From contig NC_092580.1 of the NCBI RefSeq assembly GCF_037975245.1, positions 32,265,001 to 32,329,000 on the forward strand: DNA of 64,000 nt. Direction: 5' to 3'. Shown in pieces: positions 35,098 to 62,000 of the stretch. The stretch comes from Apostichopus japonicus (lineage: Eukaryota; Echinodermata; Holothuroidea; Aspidochirotida; Stichopodidae). Position 1 is the stretch's first letter. The number at the start of each line of letters is the position of its first letter. Made by a program: the position numbers and the translations under genes. The notes beneath the pieces were generated by a model, which did not search any database, was not told the origin of the DNA, and saw nothing but the letters and a program-made list of their open reading frames with translations.

Positions 35098-38000
35098 CTT
35101 TAGATAGAAACATAAGAAGTAATCTTGAGTTGCTAACATGAGGCAGAAAATAAAAGGGGAGTTCATTAATCTTAAAGTAAATTAATAGAATGCAATGGTA
35201 GTGTACTCCAGCAGTCTGCAACAATGTTACGTAACAACCCGGCCAAATGTTTGACATTTTGGTCGTGACCTTTCGATCATCACCACCACCGACTTCCCAA
35301 CCTTGTTGAAATTTGAGTTTGCGTGACCATCAATTAACTTTCTATTACATCTGGGGGAGCTCAGGACAACCTGTCATCTTCAATCAATATATTCTCCATG
35401 CTATGAAATAACCTTAATCATAATGTGTGACGTTTTGCAGTTTTAATTTGTCCAAGACCCGCAACAATTGGCTCTTAGTAAAAAAAAAAAAATACAAATT
35501 GTTATCATGCAGCAAGCACGAACATGGAAATATTTAGATCTGTAAAAATTGAATGTTGTTGAAGTAGATTGTTTGGGTATATGATGGGAGATTGTATATC
35601 TGGATGACTGAAACGATAACATCCCTCATGAGACCGTGTCTTTAAATCACAGGAATGATATTCTTACGTGTCAAGGTGAATGTGATCGACTGCCCATTGG
35701 TCCTCGTTTGGTCCGTCGTGTCCAGGCTGCCACCATCGGAATCGCACCGCAGGTCTTCTGGCTCCCTCTGGCAGAGGAAGGGACAAACGCACCGCCCTAC
35801 CAAACTGCGTAGGGTCATGGTCCTGGAGGAGGTGCCAGTCTATGCCGTTGTTGTTGGTGTACTGCAGGATGACGGACTTGATGGCAAGGTTTGAGCTATC
35901 CGTGTTAATGTGACATTGAGGGTCCTCCGAGCTACTGCCAATCTGTAGAACAAAGTTGATTCGACTGCAAGAACAAAAGGGATGGACAAACGATAGAGCA
36001 GACGATAAGTAATAACAACCATGAATCACAGATTTTAATTGGGAAATGTGGTTGTTAATTTCTGTTCTTCTAATTGGTCTGCAAACAGCTTAGGTCAACA
36101 CATTTCCATCAGAGAGGTGTTGAAGGCAGTACCTTTAAACAGCTTAGGTCAACACCTGACAATGAGCAGACTTGGTCCGAGGAGCAGGAATGTTAACCAG
36201 TACACCTGCTTTTTAATGCCTTGTAATTGCTTTGCAAAGAGGTAGTTTATATACATATGCAGGAAACACCTGAAATCTGTTACAGATTTCTCACTTTAAC
36301 CAAGCCTCATTTTGACTGAATCAACAGCCACACTTGGACCGATTGGGCCTTGGTGTCAAGTAATGTTGTATATACCTTGCTAATCTAGTGTCCAGTTCTT
36401 GGTGTCAAGTAATGTCATACATACCTTGCTAATCTAGTGTCCAGCTCTGCAGTGATTGCTTCCCTCCTGCCACAGCCACTGAAGTAGAGGGATTTCCCCA
36501 AAGCATGGGGAACTAGGCCTCCACACCCCTGACCGATACGCCCCCCACGAACCACTGACCACATTTCATTGAGCAATGTACCCTCAAAGTTATCGACCAG
36601 ATCATTGGAGAGCTCACGGCCAGGTACACAGGTTCCACCTCTCACTACAAAGGAGATCAGATTAACATATATATATATATCTATATATGCTAGATCAGTG
36701 CAGTACAGTGTGCAAATATGACATGAGGTCAAGGGTTGATGCAGGCTTTTAATACTATTCAGTTGATTAGCAAACTTTATGAAATCAGATTGAAATTGAA
36801 AACTATTTATTTCCACTTCACCATAACATAAACAAAGTGAACATATAACATTGAATAAACAATACAAATACATTCCATAGGAATTAAACAATTGATATAC
36901 AAATGATGTGAAGTGGGGGAGACCTGGCAGAAAGCAGAGCTTATCAAGGCCAGGCCACCAACCCCCCCCCCCCACCACCACCAAAAAAAATGATATAAAA
37001 AAGATGATATAATGCCATAGATTGAGAGGAGCCTATATCATTGTTAAACTGACATTGTGTATGATTTGGAGGGCGATTATTAACCGTATAAGTACCCCTT
37101 GCTTGTAAATGGAATAAGTTCATCATTACAGCCTCCAAAATATGCTAGAAAAGTCAAATAATTGTCACCAATCATGCACATACATAAACAACGACCTCTT
37201 AACCAACCACTCATCATTTCTCTCTGTGGGAAAATTTAATAGACCATTTTGACATCTGAACATGCAGATGTACTTAATTTGGGCTGCTTTAATACTTTCT
37301 TTTATTTTGATGCAAGCATATATTGAAAAAAACAAAATTCAAAAGTTGGTTCTACCTTGGAATCCTTGATCACAAACACATGTTCCCTGGACGCAGCGAC
37401 CATGGCCATGGCAGAGGTGGTGACAAGGTGGACCGATATAAACGTCATCTATTGCCCATGACGTCAAAACACCATTACTGGCTTCCTGGACCCAGCGGAA
37501 TTGTGTTGAGCTGTTAATCAGAGAAGACAAAATTCATAATTGATCTGCTTCAGGCATTAAGGGAGGTGAGGTCTGATAGTTTGTTCTATGAAAGCATCCA
37601 TGGCAGAGGGTCAAATATTTGTAAGTTATAATACCTTTGCGTTCAATCCAAATCAAGTTGAGGCCACTTATGCACTGCGTCGCCTAGAATCATGCATTGA
37701 TGACTGGAGACTTTGGATGACGCAAAATTTCTTAAAATTAAACGATGACAAATCTGAATTCATTGTTTTTGGATCAATACAGCAGCGTGAAGAGGTAAAA
37801 ATTCCTCACCTTCCCATTGGTACTACAAACATAACTACTTCAACAAAAGTGCGGAATCTGGGTACCATATTTGATGCCAACATGTCATTAAATGATCACA
37901 TTACCTTAATATCTCAAAATGCTGCATTTCATCTTCGCAACCTTGGTCTTATTAGGAAATACCTTACACAGAATGCTACAGAACAACTAGTCCAAGCATA

Positions 38001-41000
38001 CGTAACATCACGCCTTGACATGGGAAATCTCTCCTTAATGGTCTACCAAAAATACAAATCAACCGTCTTGCACGACTACAGAACATTGCTGCACGAATTG
38101 TCACCCGTTCCAAGCCAAGGGAATATATGTCGCACATATTCTGAGAGAATTACACTGGCTCCCGATCAAAGACCAGATTATTTTTAAAATATTGATTTTC
38201 ACACATCGCTATTTTGTGAGAACTTCGCTATTCTACTTGTCAGAACTTCTGCAACTATATCACGCAAATCATAGTTTCTTGAAATGACACAATCAATTAC
38301 TTCTGTGTGAAAATCGCTCAAATCGTTCATGGGGCAAAAGAGCTTTTGCTGCTGCTGCCCCTTGTCTGTGGAACAGCCTGATTCCTGAACATGTAAAACA
38401 CAGTCCATCTCTTTCTTCTTTTTTCAAATGCTCTCTCAAGACTCATCTGATGAAAACTGTTTAATTAATTGTCATTGTAGCCAATTTTTGCTTGCATTTT
38501 TGTCTTGTACTATGTTTCCTGTTCATTGTTTTTGCTGTCACACTGATTGTGTCACTGGGCCATGAGAATCTTTTGACGGATACCGGCGCATTATAAATGT
38601 CCATTATTATTATTATTATCTTTTTTGTGCACCACTGTAACTTGAATTAAATGACACTGTTATTAACCAGTTTAAGTCTGTTTCCATTTGAACTCACTGC
38701 TGGCATTAACCTCCTCCTTTACTTATGGTTTTCCTGATAACTTTTGATTATCTTTCTTATACCATGAATCATGTGAATTATAACAAGTTCTACACATGTA
38801 AAATAGAAAGATGAAGAATAAACACCTCAACACTTGATGGTAATAGATTCCTCAATCAATTTGTTATCTTCTCTCAATATTGATGTTCTCACTCTGTGCC
38901 TTGATTGAATGATTGCTTGAAATTAAGTTGTACTGACTTGAAAGAGATATAAAGTATTCACATAAATTGCGGATAAAATAACGAATATCTCCTATACACT
39001 AATATAACCTGTAGCCTACCATGGTCTTTCATCTGGAAACCATGAATGTTCAAACCTTCACCTGCTTTAACAAAATCATGAAGAATTTGCAAAAACAATA
39101 TATGTTACCCTGAAATCGCTTGATGAGGCACCCTCAGGGTCACCCTGGTCCAGGTGCTGTGTACATTATCATCATAAAGGCTCCCATGATGGTATTTCAT
39201 GGGAGAGCATTGATAATTGTGACCTCCGGGGTGACACTCTGGCTGTACCAGTTGCCATGACGATGGATCTTGTGGCATTGTGGTATACTCTAATCTGATT
39301 GGTTTACCAGTCGAGCAGGAATAACCAAACTCAGAGTGCTGACTGCATCCAATTATAATCTGTTCAAAGATAAACAAAATTGTTAGATAATATTTCAATC
39401 TTCTTTTATGAAATGATGCACAGAATATTCCTTTAGTTAACTCATCCAGCAGTTTCTTGGCTAATCTAGAAGGTCATGAGTCTATGCTAAGAGGTCATAG
39501 GTCTATCTATGAGGTCATGGGTCCATCAAAGGGGTACCTCAGTTCATGTAGGGGGTCCTACATTCATCTAGGAGGTCACAAGTTCATCTAAGAGGCTATG
39601 GGTACAACTAGGAGATCAAGAAGTACATCATGAGTCCATCTAGGAGGTCATGGGTACATATGTTAAGTCATGAGTCAATCTAGGACACTACCAGTCCATC
39701 AAGAGGTTTGTGATTTCTTCTGATCTATTTGGGCTTGTTATTCAATATCATCTCTACCAAGTCAGATGATAATAGTGCTTGAGTATATATGTTTCCTTTT
39801 ACTTTACTTTCTTTTCAAACAGAAAATATTGAAAAAAAACAGCACCAGACCTTAAATTGAATTATGAAGTGTTTGTCCACAATCATCTCCCTTGTCGTGA
39901 CTGATCTATTCAGGTTTTCGCTTTCTGCCGTTTGCCAATAGAGGGCTGGATCAGAGGTCCAGCACACGCCGACTTGGCTGTTCCCGTACGGATAGAAGGT
40001 CCACAGCGAATCATCCGGCTGGCGGTCAAAAGAATCTTCCAAAGAGGTTGGGTTTATCTCTGACCCTCCTGAAAAATTATTATTATTACCATTATTGATA
40101 AATCATAAAGACAATATTGCAATTGAAATATATCTCTGATTTGAAGTTTAGTTTTAGATGATAAATTTGTGCACCATACTGTGATAATATCAGCAAATTT
40201 TGCCTTTCTGGCACTCCATGGTAAAGTTTATGCCTGTGACATTTCTTAGTAGGTGTTACTTCACTTCTTGAATCCACTCCTGTCAGCTTCCAAAGAACCA
40301 GAAACAATGGTCTTCTTGGGATGCATCACATGTGTTTAAGAAATGAATAGTACACTTGTGTGCATACTCTTTACCCAAACAAGCTATGACCATGCAACTT
40401 TAACCAGGGATAATTTACACCCTAACATTTCTTTATTCTGGTGGTGTATATTTGTTCAGCTTTTTAAGAGAATCATCACAGCTTGTTAATTAGTTTTCTT
40501 GCAGGCAACTCTGAGGTGTTGAGCAAGTACTTGAGACAGTAAAAACACAATCAACTCCAATACAGCAATTAATCATTACAATTGAAGACTGAGGCATCGG
40601 TTCTAGAACCAGTTAATTGTTGAGATGCTCTTGGTCACTAATTAATATGACTACAGTTGAAAATATCTATCAAAGCAAACCTAAACAAAGTTAGTTTAAC
40701 TGGTTCGATTTCATAAACCACATTCTACTTCTCACCAATGTTGCAGGTGTACTTGAAGGTATTGGTTTTTTTCTCTTTCAAACTGAACAGATTTTTCTCT
40801 CCGGATTCTTACCCACTTGATAAGACATAAATGTAACATATGAGCAAGATGGCTTCTGTTCTTCAAATGCATTCAAGATATGGCAGGATGAGTTATTCAG
40901 TATAAGCAGACAACTGTTTCAAGAAACCCTACCGATTAAGATACTATCAATGGCCCATTGTGCTGTTGGCCTCCCTTGGTGCCACGGCTGCCACCAACGG

Positions 41001-44000
41001 ACCCTTGTGGCCTTTGTCCTGGCCCCGAGAGGCATGGTCAGGTACACAAGCTGTGGTGTGGTGTAAGCACTGAAATCCAGTTCATGTAGTGTGGTCCACG
41101 TGACACCTGTAAGTAGCAGAATGAACAGTGTAGTCTGCATTTGTGTCAAAAAACCATTAAATTTCACCATTTACAGGGATGATCAAACAATTTATCAAGT
41201 TATGTTTTATGCCACAGATGAAAGCCAGGTTTGTTTGACATGTGTTGTAAAGATGGATATTTTGTAACTTTATTTTAACGTACTGGACATAAATGGCTAG
41301 GACTGTTTGTGAAGTCATGCGAAACAATCGATAATCCAGTGGTAAATGATTTTTTTGTTAATTTTACATAATTCTGTGTTATATTTAACACAATGCCATT
41401 ATACGTTCCAAATATTTGACTTTTGAAGAAGAAAAATTCAGCATAACCATAAAATAGAAGCTTTTGTATAAAAGCAAATGTCACATAGAACATCACAAAT
41501 TTGTGATTAAGCTTATTACAACGTATAGAGAAAAATCATTGTCCATCAGAGGTCACAGAAAATAAAGCCTTGTCACAGCTCAATGAATATCCCCAAATAT
41601 GCTAGAACATGAAATTTGTTGCACATTTCTCTTTAGCTACTGGTTACATTTGACTGTATTGGTCTTACCTCCATTGGCAGAAAATTGCACGATCACAGAT
41701 TCTTGTCTCATTATTGGACTTTGACAAGTGAAGTAGCCATTTTGGTCTCCAATAACCAGATAAAACTGAATGAAACTGTAGATTAACAGGAGAAGATACC
41801 ACGGTCATTTTAAAAAAGTGATTAGGTGGGGTGGTTGGGGATGGGAGTGGGTGGAAGGTAATAGTGCGTGGGTTGGTGGGATAATACACATGACATTATC
41901 ACAACTCTCTGTAGCATAACATCATCTAAGAAGTGTAAGCATTCACAGCAAAGTAAACATATGCGTATTTAATATGCAAGACTACAAACTACACACTGCT
42001 ATTTTACAGCATTGGCACAAAACTACTGCAGTTTCCGTCATTTTCCAGCATTCCCATCATTCTCCAATTAATACCATCCTATCCCACTTTTCTCTCTCCC
42101 CAGCTAACCCCACTTCATCCCCAATCCCCCTCACTACCTTCTTTCCCACCCTCAAACACACTTATTCTCTCAATTTGTTCTTACCAACAATTCACTGCAA
42201 CCAAAAGAGCAGTCATTTCTGAGAAAGTTTCTGTAGGTAACAACTTTTTACACAAGTGACATATTAGGTCATCTATCATACTCTTCATAAAAGAAACTAG
42301 TGCAGTAGTTTACCTCTTAATGTCTTCTGAAATGAGTAAATATAAACAACATGAGCCCCTGACACCTGAGTGGAGGGTCAGAGGTACATATATGGCCCCC
42401 AATTTATTTTCACAGGAATGATATTCATGCAGTTGTGGCCCCAGAACACTGCCCCCCCTGAACAATGGTCTGAGACCTGCCCAATCCACTCCACTCCCCT
42501 CCCCCCCACCCCCACCCATCTACCTCAATCCTGTGTCTGGCTTCTCTGAACATTTGAATAATTTCTACATTTGCATTCAACGTGCCTGGAATCCCTGAGA
42601 TCTAAGTCCTGCGTCTCTGCCAGCCGTTGTCCGCTACCACCGAAGTAAAGGTTTTCAAGTTCGTGGATTGGCCCACAGGAAGTAAATCTGTCTTGGGTTA
42701 CCATAGCGCCTTGAACCAAAATCCACTTGGTAGAGTTAGTCTCTCCAGCAGAAAATGTTTCTTTCAAGTGAGTCTAAAATTGTGACAGAAATGAAATCGG
42801 TCTTACTGTGAATTACTTTAATGTCACTGATCATCGATAGGTTGTAAATGAAGCCCGAGTACGTGACCAAGTGTTAAGAAACATATCAAGCACTGAACAG
42901 AAAATGTCTAAGGTCTCATTTCTTTGAAAAGGCCCATCCTTTGCTTTGTACTGTATTTTATATATTATATTTTGTGGTAGTAAACAGGCACTATGTTACT
43001 TTCAATGTATTATATGTAGTGAGTAGTGACCTCAGTACACTGTATATGCTAAATATATTAAACTATACAAAGTTTTGCAGACTCAACAACGCACACTCGT
43101 CACACAATTCCTTGAGAAAAATGTTTACGACTGGGTTCCATCTTTGATCAGACTGATCACTTAATATGATAGGTAACACGACAAATATGCAACAAATGTA
43201 CAGTAGAGATAGCTAATTAAAATAACACGCTCAAACATCAGTAGAGTAAGCTAATTAAAATAACCCACTGAAATATAAGCATTGTACATACAGTACAGGT
43301 GATACTGTCACACCCGAAGCATTCCATACTATAATGAGGGCTATGCAGTCCTGCTGAGAAAATTATAGAAATTTAGATATACTTCAAAAAGTCTATTTAA
43401 ATACTTACTGGCAGTGAGGGCGATATTTCACAGGCATCTCCTGAGTAGCCAGCATCACAGACACACAGAGGATATTGACAATCTCCATGTCCGTTACAAA
43501 ACTCTGGACAGGGTGGGCCAATGTATACATCATCTAAGGCCCACTGAGGGGTGTAAGGGACCAGGGGATCATACCGCTGAAACCATCTGAACCGAATTTT
43601 CCTGGTCAAGTGAAAAAATGGAACGATTTGACACTTTAAGAAACAATGCTGTAGAATGATGTCAAACAGCAAACAACCAATTATGTGTTTCATTGTAAAC
43701 ATGGCCAGAATAATATGACATGTCAGCCTAAGAAATCTTATGTCTTCCCTCCATGTGGCAGTCAAAACCTTTCCAAACACACTTCTTAACTTCATTCAAG
43801 TACACACATATTTATTAATATGACTGTGCATAAAATCTTTAATATGACTTTGCACTCATTAATAATAATAATAAGACTTATAATGCGCACACACCACTCA
43901 AAGAATGTTCATGGCGCAAATGACAATGAGAAATGATACAATACAGAATAATACAAAACAATGACACAAGAAAAACTTAATGGTACAAGATCATATAAAA

Positions 44001-47000
44001 GCTTTTGTCATTAAGTGGGATTTTATGCTCTTCTTAAAGTTAGAGAGAGTAGATGTTTTTCTGATTTTTAAGGGAAGTTGGTTCCATAAGCGAGGGGCAG
44101 AAACAATAAATGACCTATCCCCCCAAGAATGTTTAGACTTAATTTCAGATAATAAAAATTGAGAGCTGGATCTTAGATTACGAGAGGGGACATAAATATG
44201 TAATAAGTCAGAAATATACATTGGACCATGTCCTTTAAGTGATTTATAAACAATAAGGAGAATTTTATACATAATACGATATTTTACAGGTAGCCAGTGC
44301 AGTTTTTTTAAGACAGGGTGGATATGACAATGCTTATGAGAATGAGTTACAATACGTGCAGCTGAGTTTTGGATTAATTGGAGTCTATGAATCTGTTCAT
44401 ATGGAAGATCGAGGAGTAAGGAATTGCCCATATCCAACCTTGAAGTGATAAAAGAATGTACAATTTGTTCAGTTGCCTTATCATTTAAATATAATCATTA
44501 TCAATAGAACCACTATCAGCCGCTAAAAAACCTCTTTTATGCCTTGCTAGGCAGCTAACGAACATCTTTTTTGCCTTGCTAGGCAGCTAACAAACCTCTT
44601 TGTTACCTTGCTAGGCAGCTAACAAACCTCTTTGTTGCCTTGCTAGGTAGCTATCAAACATCTTTGTTGCCTTGCTAGACAGCTAACAAACATCTTTGTT
44701 GCCTTGCTAGGCAGCTAACAAACATCTCTGTTGCCTTGTTAGGCAGCTAACAAACATATTTGCTGCTTTGCTAGGCAGGCAACAAACCATTTTGTTGCCT
44801 TGCTAGGCAGCTAACTAATCTCTTTGTTGCCTTGCTAGGCAGCTAACAAACCTCTTCATTGTCTTGCTAGGCAGCTAACAAACCTGTTTGTTGCCTTGCT
44901 AGGTAGCTATCAAACATCTTTGTTGCTTGCTAGACAGCTAACAAACATCTTTGTTGCTTTGCTAGGCAGCTAACAAACATCTCTGTTGCCTTGCTAGGCA
45001 GCTAACAAACATCTTTGCTGCCTTGCTAGGCAGGCAACGAACCATTTTGTTGCCTTGCTAGGCAGCTAACTAATCTCTTTGTTGCCTTGCTAGGTAGCTA
45101 ACACCTCATTGTTGCCTTGCTAGGCAGCTAAAAATCCTCTTTGTTGCCTTGCTAGGTAGCTAACTAATCTCTTCATTGCCTTGCTAGGCAGCTAACACCT
45201 CATTGTTGCCTTGCTAGGCAGCTTACATACCTCTTTGTTGCCTTGTTAGGTAGCTAACACCTCATTGTTGCCTTGCTAGGCAGCTAAAAATCCTTTTTGT
45301 TGCCTTGCTAGGTAGCTAACTAATCTCTTCATTGCCTTGCTAGGCAGCTAACACCTCATTGTTGCCTTGCTAGGCAGCTTACAAACCTCTTTGTTGCCTT
45401 GCTAGGTAGCTAACACCTCATTGTTGCCTTGCTAGGCAGCTAAAAAACCTTTTTGTTGCCTTGCTAAGCAGCTAACAAACCTCTTTGTTGCCTTGCTAGG
45501 TAGCTAACACCTCATTGTTGCCTTGCTAGGCAGCCAACAAACCTCTTTGTTGCCTTGCTAAGCAGCTAACAAACCTTTTTGTTGCCTTGCTAAGCAGCTA
45601 ACAAACCTTTTTGTTGCCTTGCTAGGCAGTTTCATAATAACTCTCCTCCAGCTAACAAACCTCTTTGTTGCCTTGCTAAGCAGCTAACAAACCTTTTTGT
45701 TGCCTTGCTAAGCAGCTAACAAACCTCATTGTTGCCTTGCTAGGCAGCTAAAAATCCTCTTTGTTGCCTTGCTAGGTAGCTAACTAATCTCTTCATTGCC
45801 TTGCTAGGCAGCTAACACCTCATTGTTGCCTTGCTAGGCAGCTTACAAACCTCTTTGTTGCCTTGTTAGGTAGCTAACACCTCATTGTTGCCTTGCTAGG
45901 CAGCTAAAAATCCTCTTTGTTGCCTTGCTAGGTAGCTAACTAATCTCTTCATTGCCTTGCTAGGCAGCTAACACCTCATTGTTGCCTTGCTAGGCAGCTT
46001 ACAAACCTCTTTGTTGCCTTGCTAGGTAGCTAACACCTCATTGTTGCCTTGCTAGGCAGCTAAAAATCCTCTTTGTTGCCTTGCTAGGTAGCTAACTAAT
46101 CTCTTTGTTGCCTTGCTAGGTAGCTAACACCTCATTGTTGCTTTGCTAGGCAGCTAACAAACCTCTTTGTTGCCTTGCTAAGCAGCTAACAAACCTTTTT
46201 GTTGCCTTGCTAAGCAGCTAACAAACCTTTTTGTTGCCTTGCTAGGCAGTTTCATAATAACTCTCCTCCATCCCTGATTGGCGTGGAACTGAGAAGAAAC
46301 CGTAGCTTGATCTTCACGACACTGAGGGTCAAAGGTCATGCACTGTAAACTCAATAATGACCAGGTGAGACCACTGTCAGCTGAGTAGAAGAGATCCACT
46401 GGGTTCATGAAGGTATCTGTTGTAGCATTACAACCAACAGATATCTGAGGATGTGAAACATCAAAGCAATTGTAAACATGCTTTCCAAGTTTAATACTGT
46501 ATAACTTGTTATGTATCTGTTGTTGCATTACAACCAACAGATATCTGAGGACGTGAAACATCAAAGCAATTGTAAACATGCTTTCCAAGTTTAATACTGT
46601 ATTACATGTTATGTTGAAACCGCTTGGTATGTAATATTATTATTATTACTAAGTATTATTATTATTATAACATTATAGTTATTGAATGAAATCATCAAGC
46701 ACCAACATTGTCAGGTAACATTTCTGCATTGATTTTGGGCAAATTTTGACCCTCTTTTACACTGAAGACCGAATTAAATGTAGTTCACTATCATGGCTAG
46801 CTACATTCCTTTCCATATCATGAAAGAATAGTATAAAATTTTTACCTTTTCTAATTTTTATGTTTACATACGATTATTGGATGGCAATGAGAGTGTGGCA
46901 AACAAACTGTTTAGATAATAAATTAATCACTTTACTAATTAAGATTCAGTTAGTAAACAATTCTAATGGGAGGCTTTATTTTGATCAGTTTTAGTCAGGT

Positions 47001-53000: not shown

Positions 53001-56000
53001 TACTGTAGTCTCTTGTCACAGTTACGACTAAATAGTGACAATCACTTGTGTAAGATTTAAAGTTTCCAAAACCAATAACACTTGTATGAAGAAAGCATAT
53101 TGAGGTGGGGAAGCCTTATTGACCTGAAATATGTTTACTACAGAAACAGCTCAAATTATTCATTAGGTTTCTCGTTACTGTGACAACGATATGCAGACCA
53201 GTAAAATCATATATGCAGCTAAAAAATATTCTGGGAGACTGCCAAAAGATGAGTAGTGCAGTGAAATCAAAGATAGACAAGGTTGAATTGCAAATTGGTA
53301 ATTATTGAAATGAACATGTACATAATTAATTGATCAATCAATCAATCAATCAATCACAATGATTACCTGATCAATGGCCCAATCATCTAAAAACTCTCCA
53401 TTCCTTGAAGGCTGCCACCATCTAAGTCTCGTAGAGTTTGTCTGTGCTCTCAAAGGTATCTCCAAGGCAACTTTATTGTTAAGCAGATGGTTAGACTCTG
53501 TAAAAGGGATTTCAATAATTGGTTGCCAGGTGATGCCGCCATCTATAGAGTACTGGAGTAAGATAGGATGGCTCTTAGCGTTAGGTGCCTCACGAACACA
53601 GCCAAGTCGGATGAAGAAATGGATTTCACTGGGAAGACAGAATATTCATTGTAACTGGAAATTATAACGAGATATGATTGGATATGATGGAAATGTGTAT
53701 GATAGTTTTTCCTCATAATAACCCTGTTGATGACAAACCGTGCTGTCTTTGACATCGTCCAGGCCTACTGACCCATACAGTTGCTGAAGGGTAATCATGC
53801 AGGAACATAATTCATCGACTGTAGCTGAAATTTAATTTAGTTTCTTTGCAAATTGTCCACAAAACAATAATACAATTAGGCCTACATAGAGTAGACAGAT
53901 TAAAAATATGTTTGTGAAAGAAAGCCTTTTAGAGAAAAACATTAAACTAGTCTTTTAGTGTGATGCATATATTATTTTCTCTCTTATCTGATTGCAAACT
54001 ATCTGATTATTAAATAACACTGACTTACAATCCTCATATCGAGTGACCAGGTGCTTAATGAATTATAATAAAGCTGATCAAGTGGTCAGACATCTCAACT
54101 GATATATATGAATCTCAGTGATAAAAAATGCTGAGTCTGAATTGTTGGTTACCGCAGCATAATGGCTCCTCATCTATTAAGACGACTTAATTGTATTGAT
54201 ATTTGCATATATTTATGAAAACAATATTATATCTAAATTGCCAAGAACTTCAAATCAATTATGAAACATTTTAACCTTGCCATTGGGACGGTAGAAACAT
54301 TAGAAATATATCAGTGGAATATAGTACGGCTAGCCCATAATTCAATGTTTTAATTTTGTACCTGGCAATACTCAGATCTAAATCTTTGGTCATGAGAATT
54401 CTGATCCCTGTCCCGGTGAAATGGAGGTTCTTGCCCGTTATTATAATCCCACATTTCTTGGTCCTTTCAGCTCCACTCCACTCCAGATATTTCATGGGAT
54501 TAATAAGTCCTGCAAAATACAGCCAACAGAGTATTATACATATGACCCATTGTTTACATGAAGCTAATTATATTCAACATGTGTTCTTTACTATCAACAT
54601 TTTCCTGGTAAAGCATTAGCTGTAATATAAGGGATCATTGTGCACAGTGTATATACAACTGCCATGTTATCACCTTGGTCAGCCTAACCATGATATTTCT
54701 GTGGGGATAAAGCACTGAATGAGAACTATGGTTACATCCATGCTGAGCTATCCTATACTCCAATGATTTGGAGAGGTATGCATTGTGTCAAACATTGATC
54801 AACATTCCAGATAAACACATTTACCTATATTATCCTACAGGAGTTTAAGTTATCCAAGAAAGTATAATGATTTCATTTAACCTCTCCATCTCCTATTCCA
54901 TCACTTTCTGTTGCCCCATCACCTTCACCTTTGCCTCCCTTTTGCCAGACTGCTAATGGTCCTCATCAATGAAAATAGAGATCAGTTTAACCAGTTGAAC
55001 AATTCAAGTAAATGTACTCAAGTCCCATATCAATAATACTTTACTAATTTGGCTAAAAGTAATTTCCATAGATGTAATATTTTCCAAGCTGATCAGCTCC
55101 TCTGAGCAACAAACACAACATTAAAATCTGTCTGTGGGTTCTTGGGTGTTATTAGCTTCAACACAAGTTTGCACTGATTACATTTTGCATGGACTACATT
55201 TTGAATGGATTACATTATGCACAGATTATATTTTGCACAGATTATATTTTGCAAATATTATAGTTTGCACAGATTATATTTTGCACTGATTACATATTAC
55301 ACGGATTGCATTTTGCATGGATTACATTTTGCTTGAGTTACATCTTGCAGACAAGAATATTCACCTTCAAAATCGTCCTTCAGGAAGTAAGGCTTGGCTT
55401 CTCCGTATGCACAGGACCACCCTGAGTAGCCTGGATCACAGATGCAATGAATTCCCCTCAAACAGGTCCCATGGCCATAACAGTTATTGGGACACGATGG
55501 CCCAATGTAAACATCATCCAGGGCCCAGGATGGGGGTCTCATGGTGCTGGTAAAATTACCCTGGTACCAACGGAAACGGATCGTCCTTCAAAACAAAGAG
55601 AAATAAAACGCCGGAATTCAAAATGTAACTTTCTAAATTCAAAGCATCATGCAAAAAGTTAGGTTAGGTTAAAACTCTTTTTAATCAAAATGATTAGTTT
55701 TTGGAGGGTTTATTCCAAGACAGCAAAACATTACCACCACTCATTACCACCCTACCCCCCCATGACCACCCCAACCTCTCATTACACCACAACCCCTCAT
55801 TAACACCACTCATTACCACCCCAATCCCTCATTACCACCACACCCAACTTGCATGACCACCATGCATTACCACCCCAACTCCTCATTACCATCACTCATT
55901 CCCACCCCAACCCCTCATTACAACCCAACCCCTCATTCCCACCACTTGAATCTGTGCATGCTCTATATCCAATCAAAACTATCACGCACATCTTATCACA

Positions 56001-59000
56001 AGAAGTGAAAAGTAGTTTCTCCTCATAACCCACAGCTGTCCTTCCCTCACTCCCCCCTCCCCCACCCTGAACATTTCTAGTAAGTCCAGGATGCAGTTTA
56101 AGATTATTGAATATTCATGATGGTGTATGACTCACCCACAGAAGTGCAGGTTTGCCAGTGGTATAAGGTATCTCCTCCAGCCTGGTATTGCTCCGCTGTA
56201 GTAAATGCTCGGTGGAGACAGATCACCGGAGCAACCATTGCTCTTGGAACGATCATCGCCGAAGCAATCTTCCTGAACCAGATGCCAGGTCACACCGTTA
56301 TCAGCGGAGAACTCTAAACGGACAGGGTCCTCGGCCGACGACATCGTTGAACATCCTACATTGATCTGTGGACCATATTTGAAATATTAAATATTTAATC
56401 TATTAGTCTCACTATTAGGTAAGTGTTATAATATATTTCTTGGAGTATTAACATTAAGTAGTGGTCATAGCGAAGTGTGGGGGGGGGGAGGGAAAGGGAA
56501 GGGGAATTATAATTAATGTGGACTGAGATAGTAGTTTATTTTTCTGTATGTTTATGTGTACATATCTATGTACTATCACAGGGGTTCACAAAAACAAGCT
56601 TTCAGTAGTTTTCTTTTGTTGTTTTCTTTGTTACAATGGTTGAAATCAAGTTGAAGTGGAATTATATTTACTTGATGGTCAATGGACAAAAAATGAAGAG
56701 CTAGAACCACCAGAAATGTCAAAACCAAATTCTAATTACTCCAAGGATGGACTTTCTTTAGTACAACTCTGCGAAACTAATTGCCCATATGGTATAGTAC
56801 ATGAAAACTATTTGCTTATTTACACGTGTGCAAATGTTTCCTTCCGTTCTTAGTTCCTGTTGGGAGCGACCATGAAAGGTTGTCGCCTTGTTCACATAGA
56901 CACACGTAACCACATAAAAAACTATTAACTTACTCTGACAATTTCCTACTTATTATATAATATTATAATAATTATTATTACAAGTGTCAAACATTCGAGT
57001 GTGCGACTATCCACTTTACCTTGAATTGCAATACTGTGTCGGTGTCTACGTCAATGTTTCTCGTTGTCACCGAATGTTCACCAAGAGCATCAGAGAACAC
57101 CAACGAATTACCTCTGAAAGCAAAAGAAGGGTCATGCAAGAGATGTTAAGATGATTGAATAATTTACCAAACATTCTCTTTTCATTCAGGTATGGCCCTT
57201 GAAATCAAAGACAAATTAGATTCACAAACAGAAATTATCAAAATTACTCATGAATAATTAAAAACAAAACAAAGCATGTTAACAGACTTCTTAATATCTA
57301 CTGCAAAGTTTTTAATCAGCTTTGTTTGGCTTATTTTGACTCCTTTTGTTGCTCAGTGGTCCAAAGTAGTTGTCTGTCTATCTTTCTAGCATTTAATGTG
57401 CTCTTTCTGTTTATCGTTTAAGTTTGCATTTGAAGAAGATCCTGCTAGGATTGAAACGTCGGACCCTCTAATCTGTACGTAATAACTTATAACTAAAAAT
57501 AACATCATTGATATGTTATAATGGTTGGATACAATATGCAAAATGGTATCTAATACTTGGTTTTAAAACAAAGAATCCCCTTGTCAACAGATTAACAAAT
57601 TCTGAAAAGTTCGGAATAACAAAAACAGAACAGCTTTGTTTTAATATTCACTACAGGAGGCAGCCAGATTTGAATATGGTAAACAACAAATGATGGTCTT
57701 CATATGCTCTTAGTAAAGTTCTAGGTCCAAAATTCTTTGCTGTTTCACAATTTACAGTAAAATTATCTAATTAAAAAAAAAAGAAGAGCCCCAAATAGAT
57801 AGACACACCCAATAGACACACAAACAAACTACACAAAAAACACACACATAGATAAACACACACACAGACATACACCCGGACAAACACATTCAGAAACATT
57901 TGTGCAACATAATCATTATAGCTACTCACTCTCTTGATGTGTTAAAGTCTTCCCCATCACAAAAGTTCCCAATCTCTCCTCCAGGATAAAATAGAAAGTT
58001 CTCCTCTGAGATTGTGTCATCGAAGTTGGCTCCTATTTGACCTCGATTGAGGAGGTCACCACCGATCAGTAAATTATCCAGGACCCATACATCCCCTCTC
58101 CCGGAATGGTATGGTTGCCAGAATCTGAACCGTGTGGTCTTCATTCGAGCCTGCGATGGTAACTGCATGCTGTAATATTTGGCACTAAGGGAGTCCCTGG
58201 GGGCCAACTCTGCTACCAGTTCCCATGTTATGCCACCATTGTAAGAGAATTGGATGAGGAGAGGACTGGGTGGGGTGCTTCCAGTGGGATCCATAGAGGT
58301 ACAACCAAATTGAAGAGTGAACTGGATAAAGTCCATTAAGCTGGCGTCCAGATCTACGGTTTCTAGCATTCTAATCCCTGGCTGCTCGGAGAGGAGAGTA
58401 AACAAGAAATGAGAGAGAGAAGAGAATGGGAGAGGTAAAGGAATAAAAAACATTAGTGTTCAGCGTCATTGCAGGTGTATTAATGTGTTGAAATGCAGAA
58501 GTACTGATGCAACAAACATTACTGTTCAGTATTCTTTGCAGGTGTATTAATGTGTTGAAATGCAGAGGTTTCGTTAAAACAAACATTAGTATTCAGTATT
58601 CTTTGCAGGTGTATTAATGTGTTGAAATGCAGAGGTATCCATACAACAAACATTAATGTTCAGTATTCTTTGCAGGTGTATTAATATGTTGAAATGCAGA
58701 GGTATCCATACAACAAACATTAATGTTCAGTATTCTTTGCAGGTGTATTAATATGTTGAAATGCAGAGGTATCCATACAACAAACATTAATGTTCAGTAT
58801 TCTTTGCAGGTGTATTAATGTGTTGAAATGCAGAGGTATCCATACAACAAACATTAGTGTTCAGTATTCTTTGCAGGTGTATTAATATGTTGAAATGCAG
58901 AATTACCAATACAACAATCATTAGTGTTCAGTATTCTTTGCAGGTGTATTAATATGTTGAAATGCAGAGGTATCCATACAACAAACATTAATGTTCAGTA

Positions 59001-62000
59001 TTCTTTGCAGGTGTATTAATGTGTTGAAATGCAGAGGTATCCATACAACAGACAATAATGTTCAGTATTCTTTGCAGGTGTATTAATATGTTGAAATGCA
59101 GAGGTATCGATACAACAGACATTAATGTTCAGTATTCTTTGCAGGTGTATTAATATGTTGAAATGCAGAGGTATCCATACAACAAACATTAATGTTCAGT
59201 ATTCTTTGCAGGTGTATTAATGTGTTGAAATGAAGAGGTATCCATACAACAGACATTAATGTTCAGTATTCTTTGCAGGTGTATTAATATGTTGAAATGC
59301 AGAGGTATCGATACAACAGACATTAGTGTTCAGTATTCTTTGCAGGTGTATTAATGTGTTGAAATGCAGAGGTATCGATACAACAAACATTAATGTTCAG
59401 TATTCTTTGCAGGTGTATTAATATGTTGAAATGCAGAGGTATCCATACAACAAACATTAATGTTCAGTATTCTTTGCAGGTGTATTAATATGTTGAAATG
59501 CAGAGGTATCGATACAACAGACATTAGTGTTCAGTATTCTTTGCAGGTGTATTAATGTGTTGAAATGCAGAGGTTTTGATACAACAGACATTAATGTTCA
59601 GTATTCTTTGCAGGTGTATTAATGTGTTGAAATGCAGAGGTTTTGATACAACAAACATTAGTGTTCAGTATTCTTTGCAGGTGTATTAATGTGTTGAAAT
59701 GCAGAATTACCGATACAACAACCATTAGTGTTCAGTATTCTTTGCAGGTGTATTAATATGTTGAAATGCAGAATTACCGATACAACAAACATTAGTGTTC
59801 AGTATTCCTTGCAGGTGTATTAATGTGTTGAAATGCATAAGTACTGATACAACAAACATTAGTTTTCAGTATTCTTTGCAGGTGTATTAATATGTTCAAA
59901 TGCAGAGGTTTTGATACAACAAACATTAGTGTTCAGTATTCTTTGCAGGTGTATTAATGTGTTGAAATGCAGAGGTATCCATACAACAAACATTAATGTT
60001 CAGTATTCTTTGCAGGTGTATTAATGTGTTGAAATGCAGAGGTTTTGATACAACAAACATTAGTGTTCAGTATTCTTTGCAGGTGTATTAATGTGTTGAA
60101 ATGCAGAGGTATCCATACAACAAACATTAATGTTCAGTATTCCTTGCAGGTGTATTAATGTGTTGAAATGCATAAGTACTGATACAACAAACATTAGTTT
60201 TCAGTATTCTTTGCAGGTGTATTAATATGTTCAAATGCAGAATTACCGATACAACAAACATTAGTGTTCAGTATTCTTTGCAGGTGTATTAATATGTTCA
60301 AATGCAGAATTACCGATACAACAAACATTAGTGTTCAGTATTCTTTGCAGGTGTATTAATATGTTCAAATGCAGAAGTAATCAAATAACTAACATTAGTG
60401 TTCAGTATTCTTTGCAGGCCTATAAGGTTGATATACAGTATCACTGATAATACAGTTATAACTGTGTTATGTTGTTAAGGATATTTACTGCAAAGATTCT
60501 ACAGCCCACATATAATCCTCTTTCAATCATCTTGCTGACCAGTGACTTTAGCAATACATTGGTTTCTTAAGCTTTATTTCCAAGTACGTTTTCCGTTACC
60601 AATCTGTTCAAGTGGTAATAATACTATGAAACAAAACAGTTTTGATGATTAGATCACATTATACCAAACCTGGTTGAATATTATAGCGGTACTGGAAACC
60701 AATCTACCACACTGAATGCCAATGAAAGATCCAAGGTTTCTATTCCAGAGTTGAGTTGAAAGGGGTCCATCAAAAGTCTCCTTTAACTGCTTAGGCAGTG
60801 TCACGAAGGGTGCACAAAAGTTGCCATGATTGTAACCAGGATCACATCTGTTATGAAATGTATGAATGGCATTAAATCACAAGAGGAGCACAACAATTTT
60901 TACACTTTGCTCAAAATATTGTGTTTAATGTAACACTGAGTGTTACATACTTTTATATTGATGAACCAAGTAAAGGCATTAGGTCAAAGTTTACAGAAAC
61001 AGATCTCTCGATGGCTGATGTTGGAAGTTGTGCAAGTGTCTAAACTCACTAAATATCTGAACGTTCAGAAAGATAAACACACAAACATACAGAGCAAACA
61101 TCCTTTTACTTTTCCTGATGGATGGCCAGTTCATTTATTGTAAATATTAGACCAGTTATGTGTCCACGTAAACTACTGTTAGTTTGCAGTAAAGAAAATT
61201 TTAACGAGTGAAGATGTCGAAATTAAATTACTTCTTATTCATTCCCAAAGTAACCAAACTCATAGTAAAAGTACAATGGCCTACTCCACTTTCATAAACA
61301 TGGCGATTATTATGCAATGGACATCGGTTTGGTCAAGCAAACTCTGCTGTTTGGAAAAGTTTAAGACCAAAGTTCTGATTATTCTAAGAAACAACTAAAA
61401 GCTAGTAGAAGAAATATTTTCAAACCAATATTTTCACTGACGATATCAAAGTTCTACACTTTATAACACAAACCAATTTCACAGTTTAATATGTATATTT
61501 AGGCAACCCGCAAAATCGAAAAAATGGTTATGTAAGGAAGTTAACAGCTGGATATTATTGTGCAAAACAAACAAAGAAATCAAAAGGTAATACACAGAAT
61601 TCGAATAGGAAAGTAAGTTTTCCATTGTTCTTTAACTAATTACAACTAGATATTATTGGTTGCAATTTGTCCTCGGTGTAAACAAGAGCACTAATTTTTG
61701 CATATTTTTTAATCCTCAGTTTTAAAAATGCTTTTGAAAGGTTTATAAACAAAAAAACAAGCATTCTTGGAAAGTTTTCAGTTGGCAATGATAAAAAAGC
61801 AATATATAGATGAATTTAACAATAAAATGGAATTAATTCACTTGTAAAGAACATCAACAGTATATCAGGTTAAAAGATTATAGTTCAGATATAAAATAAG
61901 ACTTTGTGAAATTAGATACTTTACATGCATCTGAAATTAGATACTTTACATGCATCTGAAATTAGATACTTTACATGCATTGGTTCTCAAAGCATCTTCC

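Follow-up and report, generated by a model that had tools for sequence, protein, structure and literature searches.

When the end of an exon becomes the unit of a tandem repeat, where did the repeat come from, and which of its many splice donors can still lead to a protein? Such a locus lies in the reelin gene of the sea cucumber Apostichopus japonicus, on the 64,000-nucleotide stretch of contig NC_092580.1 analysed here (positions 32,265,001 to 32,329,000 of the forward strand; 'the window'). The reading that we favour, at roughly two chances in three, is of a minisatellite seeded by an exon–intron boundary, mostly neutral, with its first donor the productive one.

The exon and its array

The gene is on the minus strand, and a profile search gave 21 matches to the Pfam family Reelin_subrepeat-B (PF21471), every one of them falling on this contig within 32300673–32344074. 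The exon concerned is labelled R7A by counting back from the last repeat, which presumes eight repeats. A slash marks splice sites in what follows.

46227 to 46444, minus strand: reelin exon R7A, 218 nt, from translation and splice signals; phase-0 start (ISVGC...) and phase-2 end (...MKLPSKATK-AG)
43409 to 43601, minus strand: the reelin exon that follows, encoding an EGF-like module (RKIRFRWFQ...); its acceptor is CCAG/GAAAATT
44519 to 46249, minus strand: minisatellite array with 54 units, each roughly 32 bp; higher-order periods 94 and 156 bp
46218 to 46249, minus strand: seed unit, comprising the last 23 exon bases (46249 to 46227) and the first nine intron bases (46226 to 46218)

The 3′ end of R7A and the start of its intron read AAAAAG/GTTTGT. 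Joined to the exon at 43601–43409, R7A reads ...WRRVIMKLPSKATKRKIRFRWFQ... in protein, and the joined product matches five mouse or human reelin sequences from the PDB, the sole source of comparison sequences, with E-values from 4.7e-51 to 2.6e-22; the junction is free of gaps in the best-scoring stretch of all five alignments. Pfam recognizes Reelin_subrepeat-B in the joined protein (5.5e-19), with EGF_2 above cut-off, and together with the PDB match this gives a reelin subrepeat with an EGF-like module after it. Five of the ten subrepeats read in the window are interrupted by an intron at the equivalent point, each time in phase 2. With a gap-free reelin alignment and a phase-2 intron common to paralogous subrepeats, the end of R7A is well supported, and the preliminary description, which took the first unit of the repeat to be the true exon end, would appear to have placed it correctly.

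Tandem Repeats Finder (TRF) delimits the array as 44522–46249, with period 32 and 55.0 copies, and parsing of the sequence into units yields 54, of which 40 measure 32 bp, 11 measure 30, two measure 31 and one measures 54. The units are thus head to tail, mostly 30 or 32 bp, and within the 10–100 bp range of minisatellites. On the exon side the border is CTGCC (46249), and the seed unit carries the inferred true donor, AAG/GTTTGT, with 46226 as first intron base. Both the parse and the exon reading bear out a unit of 23 coding and nine intron bases as previously described; the interval then singled out, 44519–46444, comprises R7A together with the array.

Might this be a genomic satellite, neutral to transcription, that merely adjoins an exon? 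Other introns of the gene do hold minisatellites, for instance one of 67 bp × 29 at 58448–60418, but the present unit includes the final 23 bases of R7A itself and is not found elsewhere in the assembly. A 21-base piece of it, with two mismatches allowed, has 49 matches in the 672-Mb assembly, all inside the array, while the reversed control pattern has none; a similarity search of the assembly with the array yielded three matches, all at the locus, both searches being limited by masked stretches and skipped common words. One of the three is an opposite-strand self-match of 65% identity, for which the palindromic character of the unit is responsible. A widespread satellite, which the preliminary description had named as fatal to its own proposal, is rejected on these counts, as is a transposon tail, and the reading of a mere neighbour, largely refuted, is scarcely credible.

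About 25 bp past the array, and in contrast to it, lies an interspersed element (43991–44494) with at least 40 matches at 92–100% identity on many contigs. Pfam gave no match for its frame, which to our eye resembles the last part of a reverse transcriptase from a LINE. Another reelin intron has a plus-strand open frame (37570–38187) that looks similar to it, also with no match in Pfam.

Origin and growth of the array

Which was there first, the exon end or the repeat? In frame the coding part of the unit gives LPSKATKR, which scores 6.83 bits on a matrix built from 20 reelin segments of the window and the PDB. Shuffling the same bases 200000 times reached this score in 435 cases, 176 of the 127952 24-mers of the window attain it, and eight of the 20 reelin segments score below LPSKATKR when each is left out in turn. 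Since the unit encodes so reelin-like a peptide, it is the repeat that holds coding sequence of reelin and not the exon that holds sequence of the repeat. To judge from its letters, with LPSKATKR in frame and reelin alignments free of gaps, the array very probably started from an exon–intron boundary of reelin, the origin that had been proposed for it.

Traffic between exon and array has nevertheless occurred. A 620-bp tandem duplication took in the exon tail along with array sequence, and at an offset of 620 the identity extends to 501 of 511 positions over 45760–46270.

45630 to 45650, minus strand: exact 21-base copy of exon sequence from upstream of the seed unit, lying inside the array; a mark of the 620-bp duplication

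Such exchange, clear from the 620-bp step, would suit a repeat that arose inside the intron and later overran the exon end, whether by conversion or by a shift of that end, so that the last codons would be repeat-derived. The identity of the exon unit to several array units (five units have one and the same 32-base sequence) is likewise compatible with that course. It is quite improbable all the same: the unit encodes the LPxxA pattern of the family in the right frame, and the alignment to reelin passes the exon end without a gap.

On the favoured reading the 23 coding and nine intron bases at the 3′ end of R7A would have been duplicated head to tail, with the initial slippage plausibly aided by the inverted repeat AACAAA-AAGG-TTTGTT across the quasi-palindromic junction. 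A 136-base piece folded as single-stranded DNA is more hairpin-prone than its shuffles, in which the repetition was not kept (z −2.99 for the minus strand and −4.69 for the plus strand), and its folding is consistent with slippage at the junction-straddling inverted repeat. The array would have been enlarged to 54 units by duplications of single units, of 156 bp and of 620 bp, outward into the intron. With the 54-bp unit omitted, an identical twin exists for 19 of 26 units in the half nearer the exon and for 10 of 27 in the more distant half, which agrees with recent duplication on the exon side while falling short of proof.

Protein constraint would have held the coding copy as the intron copies drifted, many of them losing the donor. 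Among 53 units (again omitting that of 54 bp) the donor columns, 18–23, are among the less conserved. Few of the losses are independent, because lost-donor types have spread by higher-order duplication, and the columns are not taken as a sign of selection against decoy donors.

Decoy donors and the reading frame

The 'about 50' donor copies of the preliminary description are right as a count of units (54) but not of donors, which number 17 or 18 of the 54: 17 units, the true one included, have NAG/GTTTGT and one has NAG/GTATGT. Of the remainder 11 have NAG/GTGTTA, two NAG/GTTTTT and two ATG/GTTYGT, with the −1 G lost in nine and the GT itself in 12. Downstream of the true donor there are thus 17 units with AG/GTWTGT, within about 1.6 kb.

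By a vertebrate weight matrix, here applied to a sea cucumber, the true donor scores 1.45, the fourth lowest of 17 donors read in the gene and the third lowest in a set of 16, so that its earlier description as weak was right in direction. By the same vertebrate matrix the array's 90 other GTs include eight whose score is as high or higher, with one well ahead.

45225 to 45233, minus strand: top-scoring decoy donor, GAG/GTATGT (GT at 45230); 4.61 versus 1.45 for the true donor, vertebrate matrix

The 9-base signal alone therefore leaves a preference for the first donor unexplained. That RNA structure guards the first donor received no support from the three pieces folded (z −0.42, 0.06 and −0.56 versus shuffles); the donor itself sits within a predicted RNA stem. 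It may be favoured over equal decoys because it adjoins the exon's own enhancers. Whatever the means, an apparently productive donor with 17 donor-like decoys downstream of it, and at least eight GT sites equal to it or better on the vertebrate matrix, makes the locus a natural and extreme test of how the spliceosome chooses among near-identical 5′ splice sites.

What would use of a downstream copy entail? From the true donor to the end of the array only two of 91 GTs leave the frame open into the exon that follows. One is the true donor; the other is 46190 (TTT/GTTAGC), which adds 36 nt and, with a score of −3.83 on the vertebrate matrix, is a very poor donor. Downstream copies had been expected 'usually' to shift the frame, and 12 of the 17 with AG/GTWTGT do so, but the five that keep it also run into a stop and not one of the 17 is open. 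The unit that adds 32 nt meets its stop in the next exon, read in the shifted frame, and the remaining 16 meet one that begins 46 nt into the intron. An mRNA with a stop far upstream of its gene's end is expected to decay, and as the stops here are so placed, decay of the mis-spliced mRNA is to be expected.

The proposal that one or other unit serves as an alternative productive donor, giving a variant reelin, could look to 46190, one of the two open GTs when the true donor is counted. That site, however, has to set −3.83 against 1.45, and with all 17 donor-like copies closed the idea is highly improbable. The variable productive isoforms once envisaged consequently lack support, and the suggested buffering of a weak donor fails as regards protein yield, a downstream copy being unable to replace the first. 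Since the donor-like copies yield stops, the first donor must presumably be the one mainly used if reelin is to be made. The boundary-seeded, mostly neutral minisatellite that we favour would accommodate this with a spliceosome that mainly uses the first donor, any spill-over to decoys being lost, probably through nonsense-mediated decay.

The decoys would be less innocent if they competed with the first donor for the spliceosome, each use generating a premature stop, and the effect grew with the number of copies, longer alleles making less reelin. A weak true donor, eight decoys that match or beat it and 17 closed frames downstream would all suit such unproductive splicing, as would the human CBS boundary repeat, where PMC5188458 has more copies going with lower activity. 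Yet 36 of the 54 units are without the AG/GTWTGT core, which weakens the competition, and the CBS data drawn on here are of association rather than mechanism; this account is rather unlikely. The further thought that the array is a heritable rheostat, with dozens of decoys, nearly all of them ending in stops, diverting a share of pre-mRNA to unproductive splicing by copy number and thereby tuning reelin dose, is a little less likely again. Were it true, differences in array length between animals would set the amount made of a matrix protein of the nervous system.

Boundary repeats in other genes and in this one

The kind is known from human CBS, for which Lievers 2001 and Kraus 1998 are reportedly the original papers on the variable number tandem repeat (VNTR), and from human IFI6 (6-16), whose minisatellite unit is short, about 12 bp; the reelin array therefore widens the taxonomic range and adds no new principle. 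A limited literature search found no report of such a repeat in reelin. The CBS VNTR, c.1444_1467+7(16_21), has a 31-bp unit at exon 13/intron 13 made up of 24 exonic and seven intronic nt (PMC2630376), with the boundary position given also in PMC5188458 and PMC1395315. Like it, the reelin array consists of tandem units that span an exon end (23 bases) and an intron start (9) and can carry the donor. Apart from gene and phylum, the two differ in that the reelin array has 54 units versus 16–21 in people, and in that the reports of allele lengths and of an association with activity concern CBS.

The IFI6 minisatellite provides multiple splice donors, and its downstream units are used, according to PMC4526556, which cites Turri et al. 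1995. There as here, downstream units of a minisatellite carry donor sequence, but in IFI6 they lead to isoforms and in reelin the donor-like copies lead to stops; open-frame isoforms of the IFI6 type would come from none of the 17 AG/GTWTGT copies and from one of the 90 other GTs, the very poor donor.

A third human case, CBS 844ins68, is a tandem duplication of the intron 7/exon 8 junction with two competing sites (PMC2630376). Reelin has a counterpart at the other end of R7A, where a duplication doubles the acceptor junction.

46413 to 46614, minus strand: 100-bp tandem duplication, two copies, of the R7A acceptor and first part of the exon; TRF 96% matches, 98 of 102 positions alike

The CBS insertion differs in its size, 68 bp, and in being known to be silent through the use of one site. 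Use of the second, upstream R7A acceptor, with 46544 as first exon base, would add TAA. With its acceptor side duplicated as well, R7A is flanked by copied splice sites at either end. Two smaller tandem repeats span donors elsewhere in the gene.

36349 to 36448, minus strand: 49 bp × 2 across a reelin donor, AAG/GTATGT, the second copy being AAG/GTATAT; use of the latter adds 49 nt and a stop
61907 to 61980, minus strand: 25 bp × 3, identical, across a reelin donor, CAT/GTAAAG at 61975, 61950 and 61925; use of the second or third copy brings in a stop

These are plausible as first steps toward an array like that of R7A, and cases of two copies, three copies and 54 units in one gene suggest how a minisatellite can start from the edge of an exon. 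Exon borders as such do not attract repeats: four of 13 arrays hold a border versus a mean of 4.52 when placement was randomized 20000 times (P(≥3) 0.94), for 27 exons read by eye with several borders approximate and one entered as 43451 that was later placed at 43409. Enrichment is accordingly rejected, and the position of the array at a boundary may be plain chance. A further 19 kb on the gene side, with exon borders unmapped, revealed no other border-crossing array (TRF 0 and 2 rows).

Two other repeats come close to inferred splice sites. The 67-bp minisatellite mentioned above ends about 60 bp upstream of an inferred acceptor, and a 16-bp × 10 repeat (55168–55332) starts about 33 bp after an inferred reelin donor.
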